Position numbers and translations under genes: made by a program. Of a stretch of DNA of 64,000 nucleotides, positions 15,015-53,648 are shown one piece after another. Origin of the DNA: a virus; the IMG/VR virus record IMGVR_UViG_3300045996_001613, positions 1-64,000 of that record. One strand, written 5' to 3'. The stretch's first letter is position 1; every line of letters starts with the position of its first letter. Under the pieces are notes generated by a model that was not told the origin of the DNA, ran no database searches, and was given only the letters and a program-made list of their open reading frames with translations.

Positions 15015-15302
15015 ATGAAGAAACTGTTTGTAGTTCTAGCAATGATGGCAATGCTGTTGGCCGTCGCGGTGCCAGTGGTGGCACAGTCTGGCTCTCCCGA
15101 GCCTACGTCGCAGTACCAGTACAGCGCAAGCGCCTCGGCAAGCTCTGCACCCTCGGCGCAGTACAGCCAGTATCCCAACGAAGCACAGTATGGTGACGCT
15201 AGCGCCGGGTTCCTCCCGGATACGGGTGGGATACCACTCGCTGCGGTTGCCGGTGCTTTGCTGGTTGCAGGTGGTCTGATCGCACGGAAGATCGTTAGGT
15301 AG
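15015..15302 (+). CDS. LPxTG surface protein with signal peptide
   Basis: 95 residues. The N-terminal signal peptide (MKKLFVVLAMMAMLLAVAVP, cleavage after VVAQ) leads to a Gln/Tyr/Ser/Ala-rich low-complexity region with SASAS and QYSQY repeats. The end is a full sortase sorting signal: LPDTG (residues 67-71), a hydrophobic stretch (IPLAAVAGALLVAGGLIA) and the basic tail RKIVR. A host sortase would link it to the cell wall. It has its own promoter and an intrinsic terminator, like a moron gene. It could mask receptors or alter the host surface. Confidence 0.85.
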   Translation: MKKLFVVLAMMAMLLAVAVPVVAQSGSPEPTSQYQYSASASASSAPSAQYSQYPNEAQYGDASAGFLPDTGGIPLAAVAGALLVAGGLIARKIVR

Positions 15303-15324
15303 CACCAACCAAAGGACGGCTTTG

Positions 15325-15354
15325 AAGGGACCCCTTCGGGGGTCCTTTTCTTTA
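15325..15354 (+). terminator. Intrinsic terminator after the LPxTG gene
   Basis: AAGGGACCCC-TTC-GGGGGTCCTT followed by TTCTTT is a textbook rho-independent terminator rightward. The A-rich flank means it can also act on the convergent HNH gene, which stops at 15352. Confidence 0.85.
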
Positions 15355-16231: not shown

Positions 16232-16711
16232 CTATGGACGAACTCTACGGGCTCCATCATACCCTATAAGGTAGCGTCTTTCACTCTCGACCACGGCCCC
16301 AAAGTAGTTGCTTGCGTGGACAATTTTGCCCCGGCCTGTGGCTATTCCCACATGCGTCGGGGGACCCGCGGGACCATTCTCATCGTAGAACAGTACGTCT
16401 CCGGGACGGACCCTGCGGGGTTGCCATCCGTAGTACTTTTGCCCGAGGGGGGAGTATCCGATGGACACTCCCGTCGCGGCCCTGACCGCGTAGCCGGTCA
16501 ACTCACTACAGGTCCACGCGCCTCCGCTGTACCCGTAGGGGTCTCCGATCTGAGAACGGGCCTTCGCGACAATTGCCTTGCCGTACTTGTACCCCCCGCC
16601 TCGTGCGTCTGCCTCCTTCGGCTGAACGTCTGCAAGCATCACGCTGGCAATGCATATTATCGCAATGCACAGTGCTATGAATACAAACTTGAACACCTTG
16701 CTCGCCAACAT
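16232..16711 (-). CDS. Exported NlpC/P60 cell-wall peptidase
   Basis: 159 residues from ATG 16711 (GGAGG eleven bases upstream; ATG 16729 is an alternative). An N-terminal membrane/signal segment (FVFIALCIAIICIASVMLA) precedes the catalytic domain: AWTCSELTGYAVRAATG with Cys68, then RVRPGDVLFYD, THVGIATG with His120 and KIVHASN. The domain cleaves peptidoglycan stem peptides. It lies far from the lysis genes in the exported-protein island, so it may remodel the wall during infection rather than lyse the cell. Confidence 0.85.
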   Translation of the reverse strand: MLASKVFKFVFIALCIAIICIASVMLADVQPKEADARGGGYKYGKAIVAKARSQIGDPYGYSGGAWTCSELTGYAVRAATGVSIGYSPLGQKYYGWQPRRVRPGDVLFYDENGPAGPPTHVGIATGRGKIVHASNYFGAVVESERRYLIGYDGARRVRP

Positions 16712-16825
16712 GATGCTGCTTACCTCCATCTGTCCGCTTCTTTATAACAAAATGATAACAACGAACTAGCGGGGCGAAAAGGGGTGTAACGGAAACTTAA
16801 TAATCAACACATAGAAGTCAATAGA

Positions 16826-17127: not shown

Positions 17128-17559
17128 CTACTTGTTTGCGTAGTAGGGATCGTATCCCTGATTGATGCGGTACCGTACCTCGCCGTGCCCCGCGTAGGTC
17201 AGACCGATCTTGTCTGAGACGATCTGGTTCATGTCGAGCACTCGTCCCGTCCACACCGCGGGGCCGTAGTCGGTCACGGTGACGCCGTGTGCGCAGACCT
17301 GATAGCAGATGGTCAGCTTGGTGCCGGGGGGCAGTGTACGGCTCGCTACGGTCCAATCTTCCCACGTCAGTACATCTCCGTAGGCTGTGGTGTTCCCGTG
17401 TAGCGCGTAATACGATGCCTGTCCGTAGTACCACTCACCGTACGCTTGGGCTGGTGAGGGGTTGAGTCCCGCGGCCACTACCACTAGCGATAGCATGCCT
17501 CCTATGATGCGGTCTCGCCACCGCTTGCGCTTGCGTGCGAAGTCTCCAAACTTGTGCAT
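17128..17559 (-). CDS. Exported RlpA-like double-psi beta-barrel protein
   Basis: 143 residues with AAGGAGGGAACT before ATG 17559. A basic N terminus and signal segment (IIGGMLSLVVVAAGLNPSPA) precede a DPBB domain: YYGQASYYALHGNTTAYGD, SRTLPPGTKLTICY, VTVTDYGPAVWTGRVLDM. These resemble RlpA/resuscitation-factor-like wall-active domains. Two Cys (CYQVC) may form a disulfide. Likely acts on or binds peptidoglycan. Confidence 0.75.
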   Translation of the reverse strand: MHKFGDFARKRKRWRDRIIGGMLSLVVVAAGLNPSPAQAYGEWYYGQASYYALHGNTTAYGDVLTWEDWTVASRTLPPGTKLTICYQVCAHGVTVTDYGPAVWTGRVLDMNQIVSDKIGLTYAGHGEVRYRINQGYDPYYANK

Positions 17560-24039: not shown

Positions 24040-24236
24040 TGACCGGAGTACACGGCCCACTGGTCGTCCGCGAGGTCTGGATCGTCGGGCCAGTGATGTC
24101 GGAGTTCGTCGGCTTCATGAACCGCGTAAATTCCCGCATCAAGGTCGGCAGGATAGCCGAGCTAAATGGGTGGGAGGTATGGGATCGCGAGATAAACGAG
24201 ACACACGACACCTTTTGGCTGAGGGAGGCATCATGA
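24039..24236 (+). CDS. Hypothetical 65-residue protein
   Basis: MTGVHGPLVVREVWIVGPVM, then NRVNSRIKVGRIAELNGWEV and a polar end. It begins in TAATGA and ends in an ATGA overlap. Alpha/beta, no motif recognised. Confidence 0.55.
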   Translation: MTGVHGPLVVREVWIVGPVMSEFVGFMNRVNSRIKVGRIAELNGWEVWDREINETHDTFWLREAS

Positions 24237-25561: not shown

Positions 25562-26132
25562 TCCGATGAACGTCACCGACTTCGACCGCAGCGATGCAGA
25601 GCTAGAGGAGTTCTTTCTCTTCGCTGTGCTGGTCGCGAACAAGAACTCCGATAGGATGGCTCGGGCTCTGGATTTTCTGCTCCGGCAGGGTGAGCCGGGA
25701 GACTCCCCCTTTGACACGATCAGGCGCATGGTACTCGACGGCTCGATGCCCCTCCGCCTGATTCAGGCGAAGACCGGAGAGTATGGTCGACGCCTCAAGA
25801 CCCTGACCGAGGTCGCGACCGGCATGGTGCCAAACCTCCGCAATGCGGAGCCGGAGGACCTAGAGCAGATCCACGGCGTCGGGCTCAAGACGGCACGATT
25901 CTTCCTCATGCACAGCAGGCGCAACAGCCAGTACGCCGCGATAGACACTCACATCCTCAAGTACATGAGGGAGTTCTATGGGCACAAAGTTCCCAACCGT
26001 ACGCCCACCAACCGGGAGGAGTACCGGGAGCTAGAGGAATGGTTTGTCTTGCAGTGCGCCATCGAGGGCGTCACCCCCGCGGCGAAGGACCTAGAGGTAT
26101 GGAAGCTATACAGTGGGAGAGTAAGCGCATGA
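25554..26132 (+). CDS. HhH-GPD DNA glycosylase/lyase (EndoIII-like)
   Basis: 192 residues. The helix-hairpin-helix EQIHGVGLKTARFFLMHSR carries Lys112 in the EndoIII catalytic-Lys position, and AAIDTHILKYMRE carries the catalytic Asp131. The C-terminal FeS cluster of EndoIII is absent (no Cys quartet). It should excise damaged or modified bases and cut the strand. In a phage with two cytosine methyltransferases it may repair DNA or act on host DNA. Confidence 0.85.
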   Translation: MIDPMNVTDFDRSDAELEEFFLFAVLVANKNSDRMARALDFLLRQGEPGDSPFDTIRRMVLDGSMPLRLIQAKTGEYGRRLKTLTEVATGMVPNLRNAEPEDLEQIHGVGLKTARFFLMHSRRNSQYAAIDTHILKYMREFYGHKVPNRTPTNREEYRELEEWFVLQCAIEGVTPAAKDLEVWKLYSGRVSA

Positions 26133-46471: not shown

Positions 46472-46981
46472 ATGGCAGGTTTTAACCTAGAGAACTACAC
46501 AGGGTACGAGGCGGCACTAGATCAGGTACATAAGCTGGGGATCTCAAAGACTGACAGCAATGTGGTGCAGTTTCCCAATGAGGACAATGGGTGGACCGCG
46601 GTGGTGAAGGCCACTATCGTGCTGTCCGATGGCAGAGAGTTTAATGCCCTCGGAGACGCGAACTCAGACAGCATCAAGAGTGGGAGCATCAAGCCACACT
46701 ATATCCGCATGGCGGAGACTAGGGCTAAGGGGCGCGTGTACCGGGAGGCGATCAACGACGGTGGCGACCCGGATCTAGGGTCTGGAAAGATAAGCGGACA
46801 GCAGGCTGAGGATCTGATACTCAAGTCTCTCGACGTTCTCGGACAGGGTGGCCCCACTAGGGTCGCGCAGAGATACGGCAAGGACTACGTCGCGGATCTT
46901 ACTATGAAGGAAGCCGTACACGCGGGCAACATGCTCGACCGGCAGGTCGAAGAAGCCGCGGCAAAGGACGGTGAGGCATAG
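46472..46981 (+). CDS. Possible recombination / single-strand annealing-type protein
   Basis: 169 residues. ATIVLSDGREFNALGDANSD, then IRMAETRAKGRVYREAIN resembles a stretch (h-I-R-M-A-E-T-R-A-K-x-R-x-L-R) common in phage recombination proteins of the Rad52/ERF-like group, but the match is partial. A helical C-terminal half follows. Position after RusA fits recombination. Last gene of the rightward block. Confidence 0.5.
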   Translation: MAGFNLENYTGYEAALDQVHKLGISKTDSNVVQFPNEDNGWTAVVKATIVLSDGREFNALGDANSDSIKSGSIKPHYIRMAETRAKGRVYREAINDGGDPDLGSGKISGQQAEDLILKSLDVLGQGGPTRVAQRYGKDYVADLTMKEAVHAGNMLDRQVEEAAAKDGEA

Positions 46982-47108
46982 CACCGCTTGTAGGTGCTAT
47001 CGAAGGTTGAGGGGCGCGAGAGAGCCCGAGAGAGATCGGGTGCGCCGTAGCAGGACGCTACGGCAACCGGACAGATGTCCGGAAAGCGAGGAGACGACAC
47101 CCCTCCTT
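46980..47108 (+). ncRNA. Branched structured RNA at the end of the rightward block
   Basis: Five stems can form: AGCACC/GGTGCT (46980-46998), an outer GAGG(GG)/(CC)CCTC (47009-47014 with 47100-47105), GGCGC/GCGCC (47013-47017 with 47042-47046) capped by CCCGA/TCGGG, CCGTAGC/GCTACGG (47045-47063) and CCGGAC/GTCCGG (47067-47082). Unpaired joins are rich in GAGAGA and GGAGACGACA. No coding frame. CTTTCCCTTCC follows the outer stem, so it may also end transcription. Confidence 0.65.
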
Positions 47109-47154
47109 TCCCTTCCGCCTTGCATTCTATGCTAAGTCAATGGAATACGTCAAG

Positions 47155-47216
47155 GAATAGGAAAGGCCCCCGGTGGAAGGGGCCTACCCGGTTACTTGGC
47201 TGATCACATTATACCA
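47155..47216 (-). ncRNA. Leftward mini-transcription unit 3
   Basis: Extended -10 TGGTATAAT (47216-47208), predicted start near 47201, and terminator AGGCCCC/GGGGCCT (47085+100 to 47165, i.e. 47185-47165) with TTTCC after it. The RNA would be about 45 nt and has no ORF. Confidence 0.5.
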
Positions 47217-47217
47217 C

Positions 47218-47291
47218 AAGAAAAGCCCCCGGCCTCACTCGGGGGCTTATGCAGGAGAAGAACTCCTACGCTGAACGATAGTATTATACCA
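47218..47291 (-). ncRNA. Leftward mini-transcription unit 2
   Basis: Extended -10 TGGTATAAT (47291-47283), predicted start near 47276, an AGGAG/CTCCT hairpin (47267-47253), and terminator GCCCCCG/CGGGGGC (47246-47225) with TTTTCTT. RNA of about 58 nt without an ORF. Confidence 0.55.
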
Positions 47292-47299
47292 TAGGATAG

Positions 47300-47378
47300 C
47301 CAAAAGCCCCTCAACCAGAGGGGCCTCAGCCGTGGGACTGATTATGTGTCCTCACCTTTGCGCATACAGAGTATATCA
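47300..47378 (-). ncRNA. Leftward mini-transcription unit 1
   Basis: Extended -10 TGATATACT (47378-47370) just after the palindrome CACACTC-TA-GAGTGTG (47378-47395), predicted start near 47363, and terminator GCCCCTC/GAGGGGC (47324-47306) with TTTT. It also terminates the beta-helix gene. RNA of about 60 nt without an ORF. Confidence 0.5.
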
Positions 47379-47429
47379 CACTCTAGAGTGTGGTGTCCTC
47401 CGGTCGAATTATCGGACCCATTACACCCC

Positions 47430-48428
47430 TTACTGGTTATTAGCGCAGCGCACTATGTTATCGGGCAGTTCGCAGCCCTTGAACGTCTCCCCGTTGAAGT
47501 CATTGTTCACCACGTCTATGTTAGACAGGTTTACGCGATCCGACCGGCCCGAGTCTGACGCAATCCCCGCGAGGTTCTTGGCGTTGTTGTCAAACACGTT
47601 GCCCTGCACCAGCGCGTTCTGAGAGTCGCGTATACTGACGCCTCCGCGGGTAGCCTCGGTCGAGTTGCCATGTATGTAGTTATCCTCGATCAGAGCCCCG
47701 CCGCTGCAGTTCTCATAGCGCACACCGCCGCGTGTGTTGCCTTCTACGTCGACGTTATGAATCCAGAACCCGTTAGGATGGGTGGAACTTGGTGTGCAGC
47801 GCACGTCTCCCCATATGCCGTTGCCCTCATTGTCGTGCGCCCATCCACCGGACACCTCGATCACATTGATCGACTTGATACCCGAGGACGTGAAGCCGAG
47901 GGCCGCGGCGGAACCGTTGTTGTCGAACTCGACGTCAAAGAACTTGCCATTGGCGTTACTTACGCCCATAGCTTCATTGTTCGTGAACCGAGAGTTACGG
48001 ACCACGGTGTTCTGTCCCGCGGAGCCTAGAGCTAATCCTGCACCACTGCCCGCGGACCCATCAAAGTTAGCCCCCTGTACTTGCACCCAATTTTGCGCAT
48101 AGGGACCCTCCTTTGGCTTGATCACCTGATCGACGTTGTTAGTGCCGTTGACGATGCTAGTGATGTTCTCCGGATTGGTGCCGGCGACCGGACGGTTAGA
48201 CACGGTGCCGGGTACCCCCACGAGTTCGTCTCCCTTGCGGGGCGCGATGGTCGCGGAAGTATTGTACGTACAGGACCCGAGCTTGAATGTGGTGCCGATG
48301 TCCTTGGCGTCGTTATTCACCACATTCGCGAGGTTCGACCCGCAGGGCACGTTGACCGTACGCGAAGCGCCCATCGAGAAGACCGCGACCACCGCGATCA
48401 TCAGGGCTATTAGCATTACTTTCCTCAT
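47430..48428 (-). CDS. Secreted right-handed beta-helix protein
   Basis: 332 residues, AAGGGAGGAATGA before ATG 48428. A signal peptide (MRKVMLIALMIAVVAVFSMG) leads to a domain full of pectate-lyase-like turns (NTVVRNSRFTNNEAMGVSNA; IWIHNVDVEGNTRGG pattern; ALIEDNYIHGNSTEATRGGV). Such folds bind or cleave polysaccharides. It is exported by the infected cell, not obviously a tail part: it lies beside tRNAs with its own terminator. May alter the host envelope or exclude other phages. Confidence 0.75.
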   Translation of the reverse strand: MRKVMLIALMIAVVAVFSMGASRTVNVPCGSNLANVVNNDAKDIGTTFKLGSCTYNTSATIAPRKGDELVGVPGTVSNRPVAGTNPENITSIVNGTNNVDQVIKPKEGPYAQNWVQVQGANFDGSAGSGAGLALGSAGQNTVVRNSRFTNNEAMGVSNANGKFFDVEFDNNGSAAALGFTSSGIKSINVIEVSGGWAHDNEGNGIWGDVRCTPSSTHPNGFWIHNVDVEGNTRGGVRYENCSGGALIEDNYIHGNSTEATRGGVSIRDSQNALVQGNVFDNNAKNLAGIASDSGRSDRVNLSNIDVVNNDFNGETFKGCELPDNIVRCANNQ

Positions 48429-52961: not shown

Positions 52962-53648
52962 CTACGCAGCCTTGGGCTCCGTTGAGGAGCAGCCTGTCCA
53001 TCCAGAGAGATAGGAGAGTTCCCGCATGGTGCGATCATGCATGTACACGATGCCGCCGTCCCCGTAGTCCGTTCCCCACGAGTTCTGGAATATCCAGATA
53101 GTGTTTCCGTCATGGAGTACGTAGAATCCTATGCAAAGTATCGCATGTCCTCCAACGAGAGGTCCGGTGGGGTAAATGAAGTTGTACCGATCCGGCTCGT
53201 ACATCCCGTCGAACCAGCGCATCGTCATGACCACTGGCCCCTTGTTCATTCTCATCCAGAGCTTTACGTCGTCGAGTGTTCTTGCCCACACGAATCTCTC
53301 GATGTATCCATAGCCGCGATAGATCTTCGCGCCCGCCTGATTACTGGTCCCCTCTTCTGGGGGCGTGTCGGCAAACTCGTCTATCGCTTGCGCCTCGGGA
53401 TAGAAGCGGAAGGCGTCCTCGTCGGTCAGGAGCGTCGCGGGCACGCGAGGCCCCGCGTTGATCTTGTGCGCCCATGCAAAGAGCACACAGGCCCCCTCCT
53501 GACCCTGATTCAGAGTGGGTCCGGGATCGTAGAATGGTGACGTCTGTATAGTGGCGGTCGCGGGGAACTCCGCGGCCATGAGATAGTTTAGAGCACGCTC
53601 ATCTACAACGTACTTCGCTCCCAATCCTTTACGTCCACGTTTACTCAT
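52962..53648 (-). CDS. Papain-like (C1A) cysteine peptidase
   Basis: 228 residues. Gln48 in LNQGQEGACVLFAWA with Cys54, His168 in GGHAILCIGF and Asn189 in FQNSWGTDYGDGG form the complete papain set with correct spacing. No propeptide or signal peptide is evident. The -10 lies six bases before ATG 53648, so the mRNA is leaderless. May digest a host or virion protein at lysis or act on peptide cross-bridges. Confidence 0.88.
   Translation of the reverse strand: MSKRGRKGLGAKYVVDERALNYLMAAEFPATATIQTSPFYDPGPTLNQGQEGACVLFAWAHKINAGPRVPATLLTDEDAFRFYPEAQAIDEFADTPPEEGTSNQAGAKIYRGYGYIERFVWARTLDDVKLWMRMNKGPVVMTMRWFDGMYEPDRYNFIYPTGPLVGGHAILCIGFYVLHDGNTIWIFQNSWGTDYGDGGIVYMHDRTMRELSYLSGWTGCSSTEPKAA

Follow-up and report, generated by a model that had tools for sequence, protein, structure and literature searches.

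A tandem array of three predicted promoter–terminator units between convergent transcription blocks of an uncultured siphovirus-like phage

The two main blocks of transcription in an uncultured phage converge on a short stretch of intergenic DNA in which promoters and intrinsic terminators alternate three times with no gene between them. This arrangement raises the question of what such a locus produces: short RNAs in their own right, a barrier between two transcription programmes, or nothing of consequence beyond the termination of one of them. We have analysed the locus in the first 64 kb (the window) of an IMG/VR record of 83,577 bases, together with the remainder of that record, starting from an earlier note that had been made from the nucleotide letters alone.

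The phage and its convergent junction

The ends of the record share an exact 127-base repeat, indicating that the genome is circularly complete at ~83.45 kb. Portal, major head and tail proteins are encoded on the minus strand along with a weak terminase match, and the plus strand codes for a DnaB helicase, a replication initiator, an RNA ligase, RusA, a methylase and RNase H; we refer to the phage as siphovirus-like. DNA searches against phages, near and distant, and against plasmids returned no match to it, and none of the named phages is close: among the best hits listed, portal identity stays under 35%, and the terminase has no tblastn match.

Judging from a small LPDTG-type surface protein encoded at 15016–15303, the host is probably Gram-positive and perhaps actinobacterial. 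This plus-strand ORF of 95 aa has a good Shine–Dalgarno (SD) sequence, a signal-peptide-like start and a C-terminal LPDTG with a hydrophobic stretch and RKIVR; a strong terminator (15325–15348) lies downstream, and the product resembles a surface protein of the sortase type encoded by the phage. Lytic enzymes of the NlpC/P60 and DPBB kinds that appear to be secreted, and a protease of the papain family, are encoded at 16235–16729, 17131–17559 and 52965–53648 (minus strand).

The genes of the rightward (replication) block extend from ~18.6 to 46.98 kb. The leftward (late/tRNA) block runs from ~10.9 kb through the record origin, resumes at 83 kb and ends at 47.43 kb; it holds a beta-helix gene and a cluster of tRNA genes (Asn, Met and Pro), with small ORFs and tRNA genes just upstream of the array. 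The array occupies the intergenic gap where both blocks end, so that its placement between convergent blocks, as put forward in the earlier note, is borne out. The product of the adjoining beta-helix gene has a 44% homologue in a relative, G003, in which the gene has another place and orientation (L014 4752–5819) and adjoins a tRNA-His; it reads as a moving gene beside tRNAs.

Promoters and terminators of the array

Within 215 bp of the minus strand (47164–47378), three extended -10 promoters (P1–P3) alternate with three intrinsic terminators (T1–T3), and a candidate fourth promoter, P4, comes after T3. In minus-strand order, the features of the junction are:

47430–48428, minus strand: gene for a 332-aa beta-helix protein with a signal peptide-like start; last in the leftward block and immediately upstream of P1
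47377–47392: 16-bp perfect palindrome CACACTCTAGAGTGTG, overlapping the TG of P1; candidate operator
47370–47378, minus strand: P1, extended -10 TGATATACT, weak -35 (AGGACA) at 18 nt
47305–47325, minus strand: T1 stem, -15.8 kcal/mol, tail TTTTGG
47283–47291, minus strand: P2, extended -10 TGGTATAAT, 13 nt past the T1 stem
47223–47248, minus strand: T2 stem, -17.5 kcal/mol, tail TTCTTG
47208–47216, minus strand: P3, extended -10 TGGTATAAT, 6 nt past the T2 stem
47164–47185, minus strand: T3 stem, -15.0 kcal/mol, tail TTCCTATT, the weakest of the tails
47124–47153, minus strand: candidate P4, TTGACG-N18-TAGAAT, not above chance
46978–47125, either strand: strongly foldable multi-stem (branched) region, beginning at the stop codon of the final rightward gene
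46472–46981, plus strand: gene for a 169-aa protein, function unassigned; last in the rightward block

The three extended -10 boxes, each followed by a hairpin with a T-rich tail, were the core of the earlier note, and all of them are found at their places on the minus strand. Its further claim that the units contain no ORF also holds, as no ORF with a usable start was found downstream of P1, P2 or P3; the first predicted RNA (RNA1) contains a very short GTG frame without a spaced SD. Searched with equal thresholds, the real segment (47110–47420) yielded three promoter–terminator units and 3000 dinucleotide shuffles yielded none, under a shuffle model that ignores the intergenic clustering of promoters and terminators, and no unit reached these thresholds elsewhere in the genome. 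The array is real, well beyond chance and sensible in its context; its function is a proposal. The units resemble one another only in stretches of 13–15 nt within the -10 and the GC-rich stem parts, and descent from a common duplicated unit was dropped for this reason.

A whole-genome terminator scan, scored by hairpin energy and tail, ranked T2 fourth, T1 sixth and T3 seventh, and the three account for three of the seven terminators in the genome at about -15 kcal/mol or below. Their tails are moderately U-rich. T1–T3 are intrinsic terminators that would each define a short 3' end, as in phage small-RNA genes, and they also constitute a tandem terminator block, lying downstream of the leftward beta-helix gene that ends at 47430 and pointing in the same direction. 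Read rightward, the array hairpins have no U-tract, and a search from 44.1 to 54.9 kb for rightward terminator-like sites of -8 kcal/mol or lower found none.

The exact TGnTATAAT element occurs three times in the whole genome (83 kb), and two of these occurrences are P2 and P3, which carry exact TGGTATAAT twice within 84 bp. Neither has a recognisable -35. P1 is weaker and less certain, with a non-consensus hexamer (TATACT) and a poor -35. The palindrome that overlaps it, one of four perfect 16-bp palindromes in the genome (~1.3 expected), may be an operator of P1; it is single-copy, as no second copy of its 12-bp core was found at up to two mismatches.

Nine copies of TGGTANNAT are present in the genome, and six of them have an ATG exactly 6–7 nt downstream, compared with ~0.3 expected and none for the reversed control pattern:

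12538 (+), 39800 (+), 53663 (-), 18581 (-), 17985 (-) and 16022 (-): TGGTANNAT-N6/7-ATG sites, candidate leaderless-gene promoters

Three of these sites open ORFs of 110–228 aa, and the other three open frames of 12, 46 and 59 codons. Leaderless genes are common in actinobacteria, and the six sites look like leaderless-gene promoters. Six of nine copies at this fixed distance mark the motif as a class of promoter that works in the phage, and the spacing of the leaderless layout would place +1 at 7–8 nt past the -10. Among the three remaining copies, one is intragenic and the other two are P2 and P3, the sole intergenic members without a start codon, suggesting that the phage uses its own promoter class here for noncoding output. 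A promoter of the phage's own class, as looked for in a phage small-RNA gene, is thus present at P2 and P3 and only approximately at P1. The TGGTANNAT-N6/7-ATG layout also occurs in G003, at 24224 (minus strand).

Predicted RNAs and occurrence elsewhere

With starts placed at +1 = 7–8 nt past each -10, the position taken from the leaderless genes elsewhere in the genome, the array is predicted to give three RNAs. Their recomputed lengths of ~62, 58–60 and 42–44 nt uphold the 60, 58 and 45 nt of the earlier note:

47302–47363, minus strand: predicted RNA1, ~62 nt, 3' end in T1; fold z -2.4
47217–47276, minus strand: predicted RNA2, ~60 nt, a 7-bp 5' hairpin (GUAGGAG/CUCCUGC) and T2; fold z -3.7
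47158–47201, minus strand: predicted RNA3, ~44 nt, a short 5' single strand and T3; fold z -1.7

None of 200 shuffles was as stable as RNA2. RNA3 barely exceeds a terminator, and the three RNAs have little sequence in common, both of which count against a small-RNA role. Rfam covariance models matched neither the array RNAs nor the branched region, and in pairing of RNA1–RNA3 with the translation-start regions of the phage's own genes, the best duplexes were no better than those of shuffled RNAs. For the array RNAs these two results, like the weaker P1, also count against such a role.

Protein-guided scans of IMG/VR with the genes flanking the array gave no relative. Portal scans recovered three contigs of a single relative, G003 (66% in the portal and 71% in the head protein), which is syntenic over the head/tail and early region and stops short of the junction; a portal scan of genome contigs gave only a 25% match. 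No relative covering the junction was found in the phage and plasmid DNA searches or in the protein-guided IMG/VR scans. Three long contigs from a methylase scan were dropped as relatives, since only the methylase gene is in common. G003 contains a single exact TGGTATAAT. It too lacks an ATG at +1, and transcription from it would pass a hairpin leader on the way to tRNA-His, so that its output is likewise predicted to be noncoding. At this site (L014 5822–6112; G003 ~25822–26112, minus strand), TGGTATAAT precedes a strong 13-bp hairpin leader and then a 12-codon ORF (MTKKYWNIKHHW) with an SD, directly before the tRNA-His.

A strict tandem-module pattern had two matches in IMG/VR, and both were rejected, one being a promoter-attenuator before a gene and the other not a terminator. 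A looser pattern, a terminator followed by TGGTATAAT, had more than 119 matches in IMG/VR viral contigs. Among the matches listed, an ORF of at least 40 aa starts within 150 nt at 52 of 66 distinct sites, and a second terminator follows within 75 nt at 7 of the 66, compared with 41 of 1980 random positions (2%), a comparison that still includes intergenic bias. Single short promoter–terminator units therefore recur occasionally elsewhere; a tandem array of three was not seen among the matches listed, which were searched with exact motifs.

Possible roles of the array and its neighbourhood

We favour a small-RNA role over a pure barrier, and consider it an even call that the array consists of three minimal, independent noncoding units with the RNAs as their likeliest main output. 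Each unit would combine a strong extended -10 promoter, of the class native to this phage, with its own intrinsic terminator 40–60 nt on, and would release a short terminator-capped RNA (~62, 60 and 44 nt). As a by-product or second job, T1–T3 would end the leftward late, tRNA and beta-helix transcription before it reaches the replication block. The RNAs would be abundant and act in trans; as no target within the phage stands out, the host is where they would most probably act. The analysis establishes the elements and their positions, their non-randomness, the promoter class and the genome context. Promoter activity, RNA ends and RNA abundance are what we infer from these elements, and the role of the RNAs is speculative.

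Several known systems resemble the array in part. The phage lambda OOP RNA is a single small antisense RNA with its own promoter and terminator and a known target; it has the same minimal layout of promoter, short RNA and intrinsic terminator, but here there are three in tandem and they are not antisense to a gene. In T4-type phages, as Arbiol et al. reportedly described in 2010, promoter/stem-loop cassettes flank genes, and their copies share sequence. The array is similar in having repeated terminator–promoter modules in intergenic DNA, yet no genes lie between its units and no common sequence extends beyond the -10 and the GC-rich stems. It also resembles the tandem intrinsic terminators found at operon ends, in that three strong terminators close the leftward block, but differs from plain tandem terminators in having consensus promoters interposed, at 13 nt (P2) and 6 nt (P3) past the preceding stem. 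A further parallel is with mycobacteriophages D29 and L5, whose Pleft transcripts are abundant, short, stable noncoding RNAs (PMC5712189): in both cases highly promoted short transcripts without an ORF are encoded by a phage at a transcription boundary, here as a prediction. In D29/L5, one early promoter serves ~500 bp and a stem-loop terminator is not evident (PMC5712189), whereas the three promoters here lie where two blocks converge and each has a hairpin terminator no more than 60 nt away; as to sequence relation, the phage DNA searches gave no match.

The small-RNA reading draws on this precedent and on the layout itself, as a consensus promoter with an immediate terminator is the most economical way to make short RNAs. 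It is further supported by the three units against none in the shuffles, by the gathering at one locus of the genome-wide extremes of both terminators and TGnTATAAT, by the inclusion of P2 and P3 in the promoter class defined by TGGTANNAT, by the noncoding TGGTATAAT of G003 and by the second hairpin of RNA2.

The earlier note had offered a small-RNA array or an insulating barrier, and the geometry, the site at the junction and the promoter class of P2 and P3 do back noncoding units. As a barrier, the terminators would halt leftward late transcription, and polymerases held on the template by continual firing of P1–P3 would block rightward ones, the RNAs being by-products. The leftward half of this proposal stands, and the position at the junction of the two main blocks, the three stacked leftward terminators and the lack of an intrinsic rightward terminator for the replication block all fit it; yet promoters between the terminators are needless for halting leftward traffic alone, and a rightward barrier can only be surmised, since a U-tract is missing when the hairpins are read that way. 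Antisense promoters past a gene's 3' end can repress by collision, but the polymerase from the antisense promoter falls off more often (43–54% against 7–15%) and interference rises with inter-promoter distance (PMC4731013), which would make units of 45–60 nt poor roadblocks. With Rho- or structure-dependent rightward termination as a possible alternative, we regard the barrier as unlikely to be the main role.

We think it distinctly unlikely that the units are emptied cassettes, each made of one gene's terminator and the next gene's promoter, having lost small genes or tRNAs or serving as landing sites for gene exchange in the manner of the T4-type cassettes, with functionless RNAs. The abundance of terminator-TGGTATAAT sites in viral contigs, most of them followed by an ORF, and the tRNA genes and small ORFs just upstream would suit such an origin, but decay should have blurred the two exact TGGTATAAT copies and the three strong hairpins, all of which are intact, and units alike only in the -10 and the GC-rich stems bear no sign of cassette duplication. 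That T1–T3 are real terminators and the -10-like elements have little or no activity in the actual host is more doubtful still: the lack of a recognisable -35 at P2 and P3 and the non-consensus P1 speak for it, and against it are the constant spacing between TGGTANNAT and start codons and the proximity of two of the three exact TGGTATAAT copies in the genome, which is unexpected by chance.

Another possibility is that polymerases coming off the late operon, or off the unit before, are recycled in place at T1 or T2 onto P2 or P3. The promoters, 13 nt (P2) and 6 nt (P3) beyond the stems, would receive the terminating polymerase and start the following short RNA, so that small-RNA levels would be coupled to late transcription. 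Such a relay is a long shot, and we know of no description of a natural tandem array that works by polymerase recycling. In vitro, E. coli polymerase reinitiated after termination in 37% of cases, and in 55% with added sigma (PMC6978380).

If expressed, the locus would be a natural array that packs three noncoding genes of the smallest possible size into the place where the two transcription programmes of the phage collide. It would offer a clean natural system for phage behaviour at convergent junctions and for polymerase reuse at terminator-adjacent promoters, and a model for how lineages with leaderless promoters switch one promoter class between coding and noncoding output.

Downstream of T3, the earlier note had P4 firing into the complement of a branched RNA (46980–47108). 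The P4 element is present as written, but matches of its quality number 17 against 11.2 ± 3.0 in shuffles, and with no clear enrichment P4 is unproven. An antisense ORF that would follow from it (46885–47100) was dropped, its start codon lying 1 nt from the SD and the frame lying opposite a likely gene. The branched region does fold strongly; as it does so on both strands (z -5.0 on the plus and -4.7 on the minus strand, against shuffles), the strand that the earlier note had assumed is left undecided. An 11-nt perfect inverted repeat, GGTTGAGGGGC, has one arm in this region (47005–47015, plus strand) and the other in T1/RNA1 (47306–47316), both in GC-rich stems.
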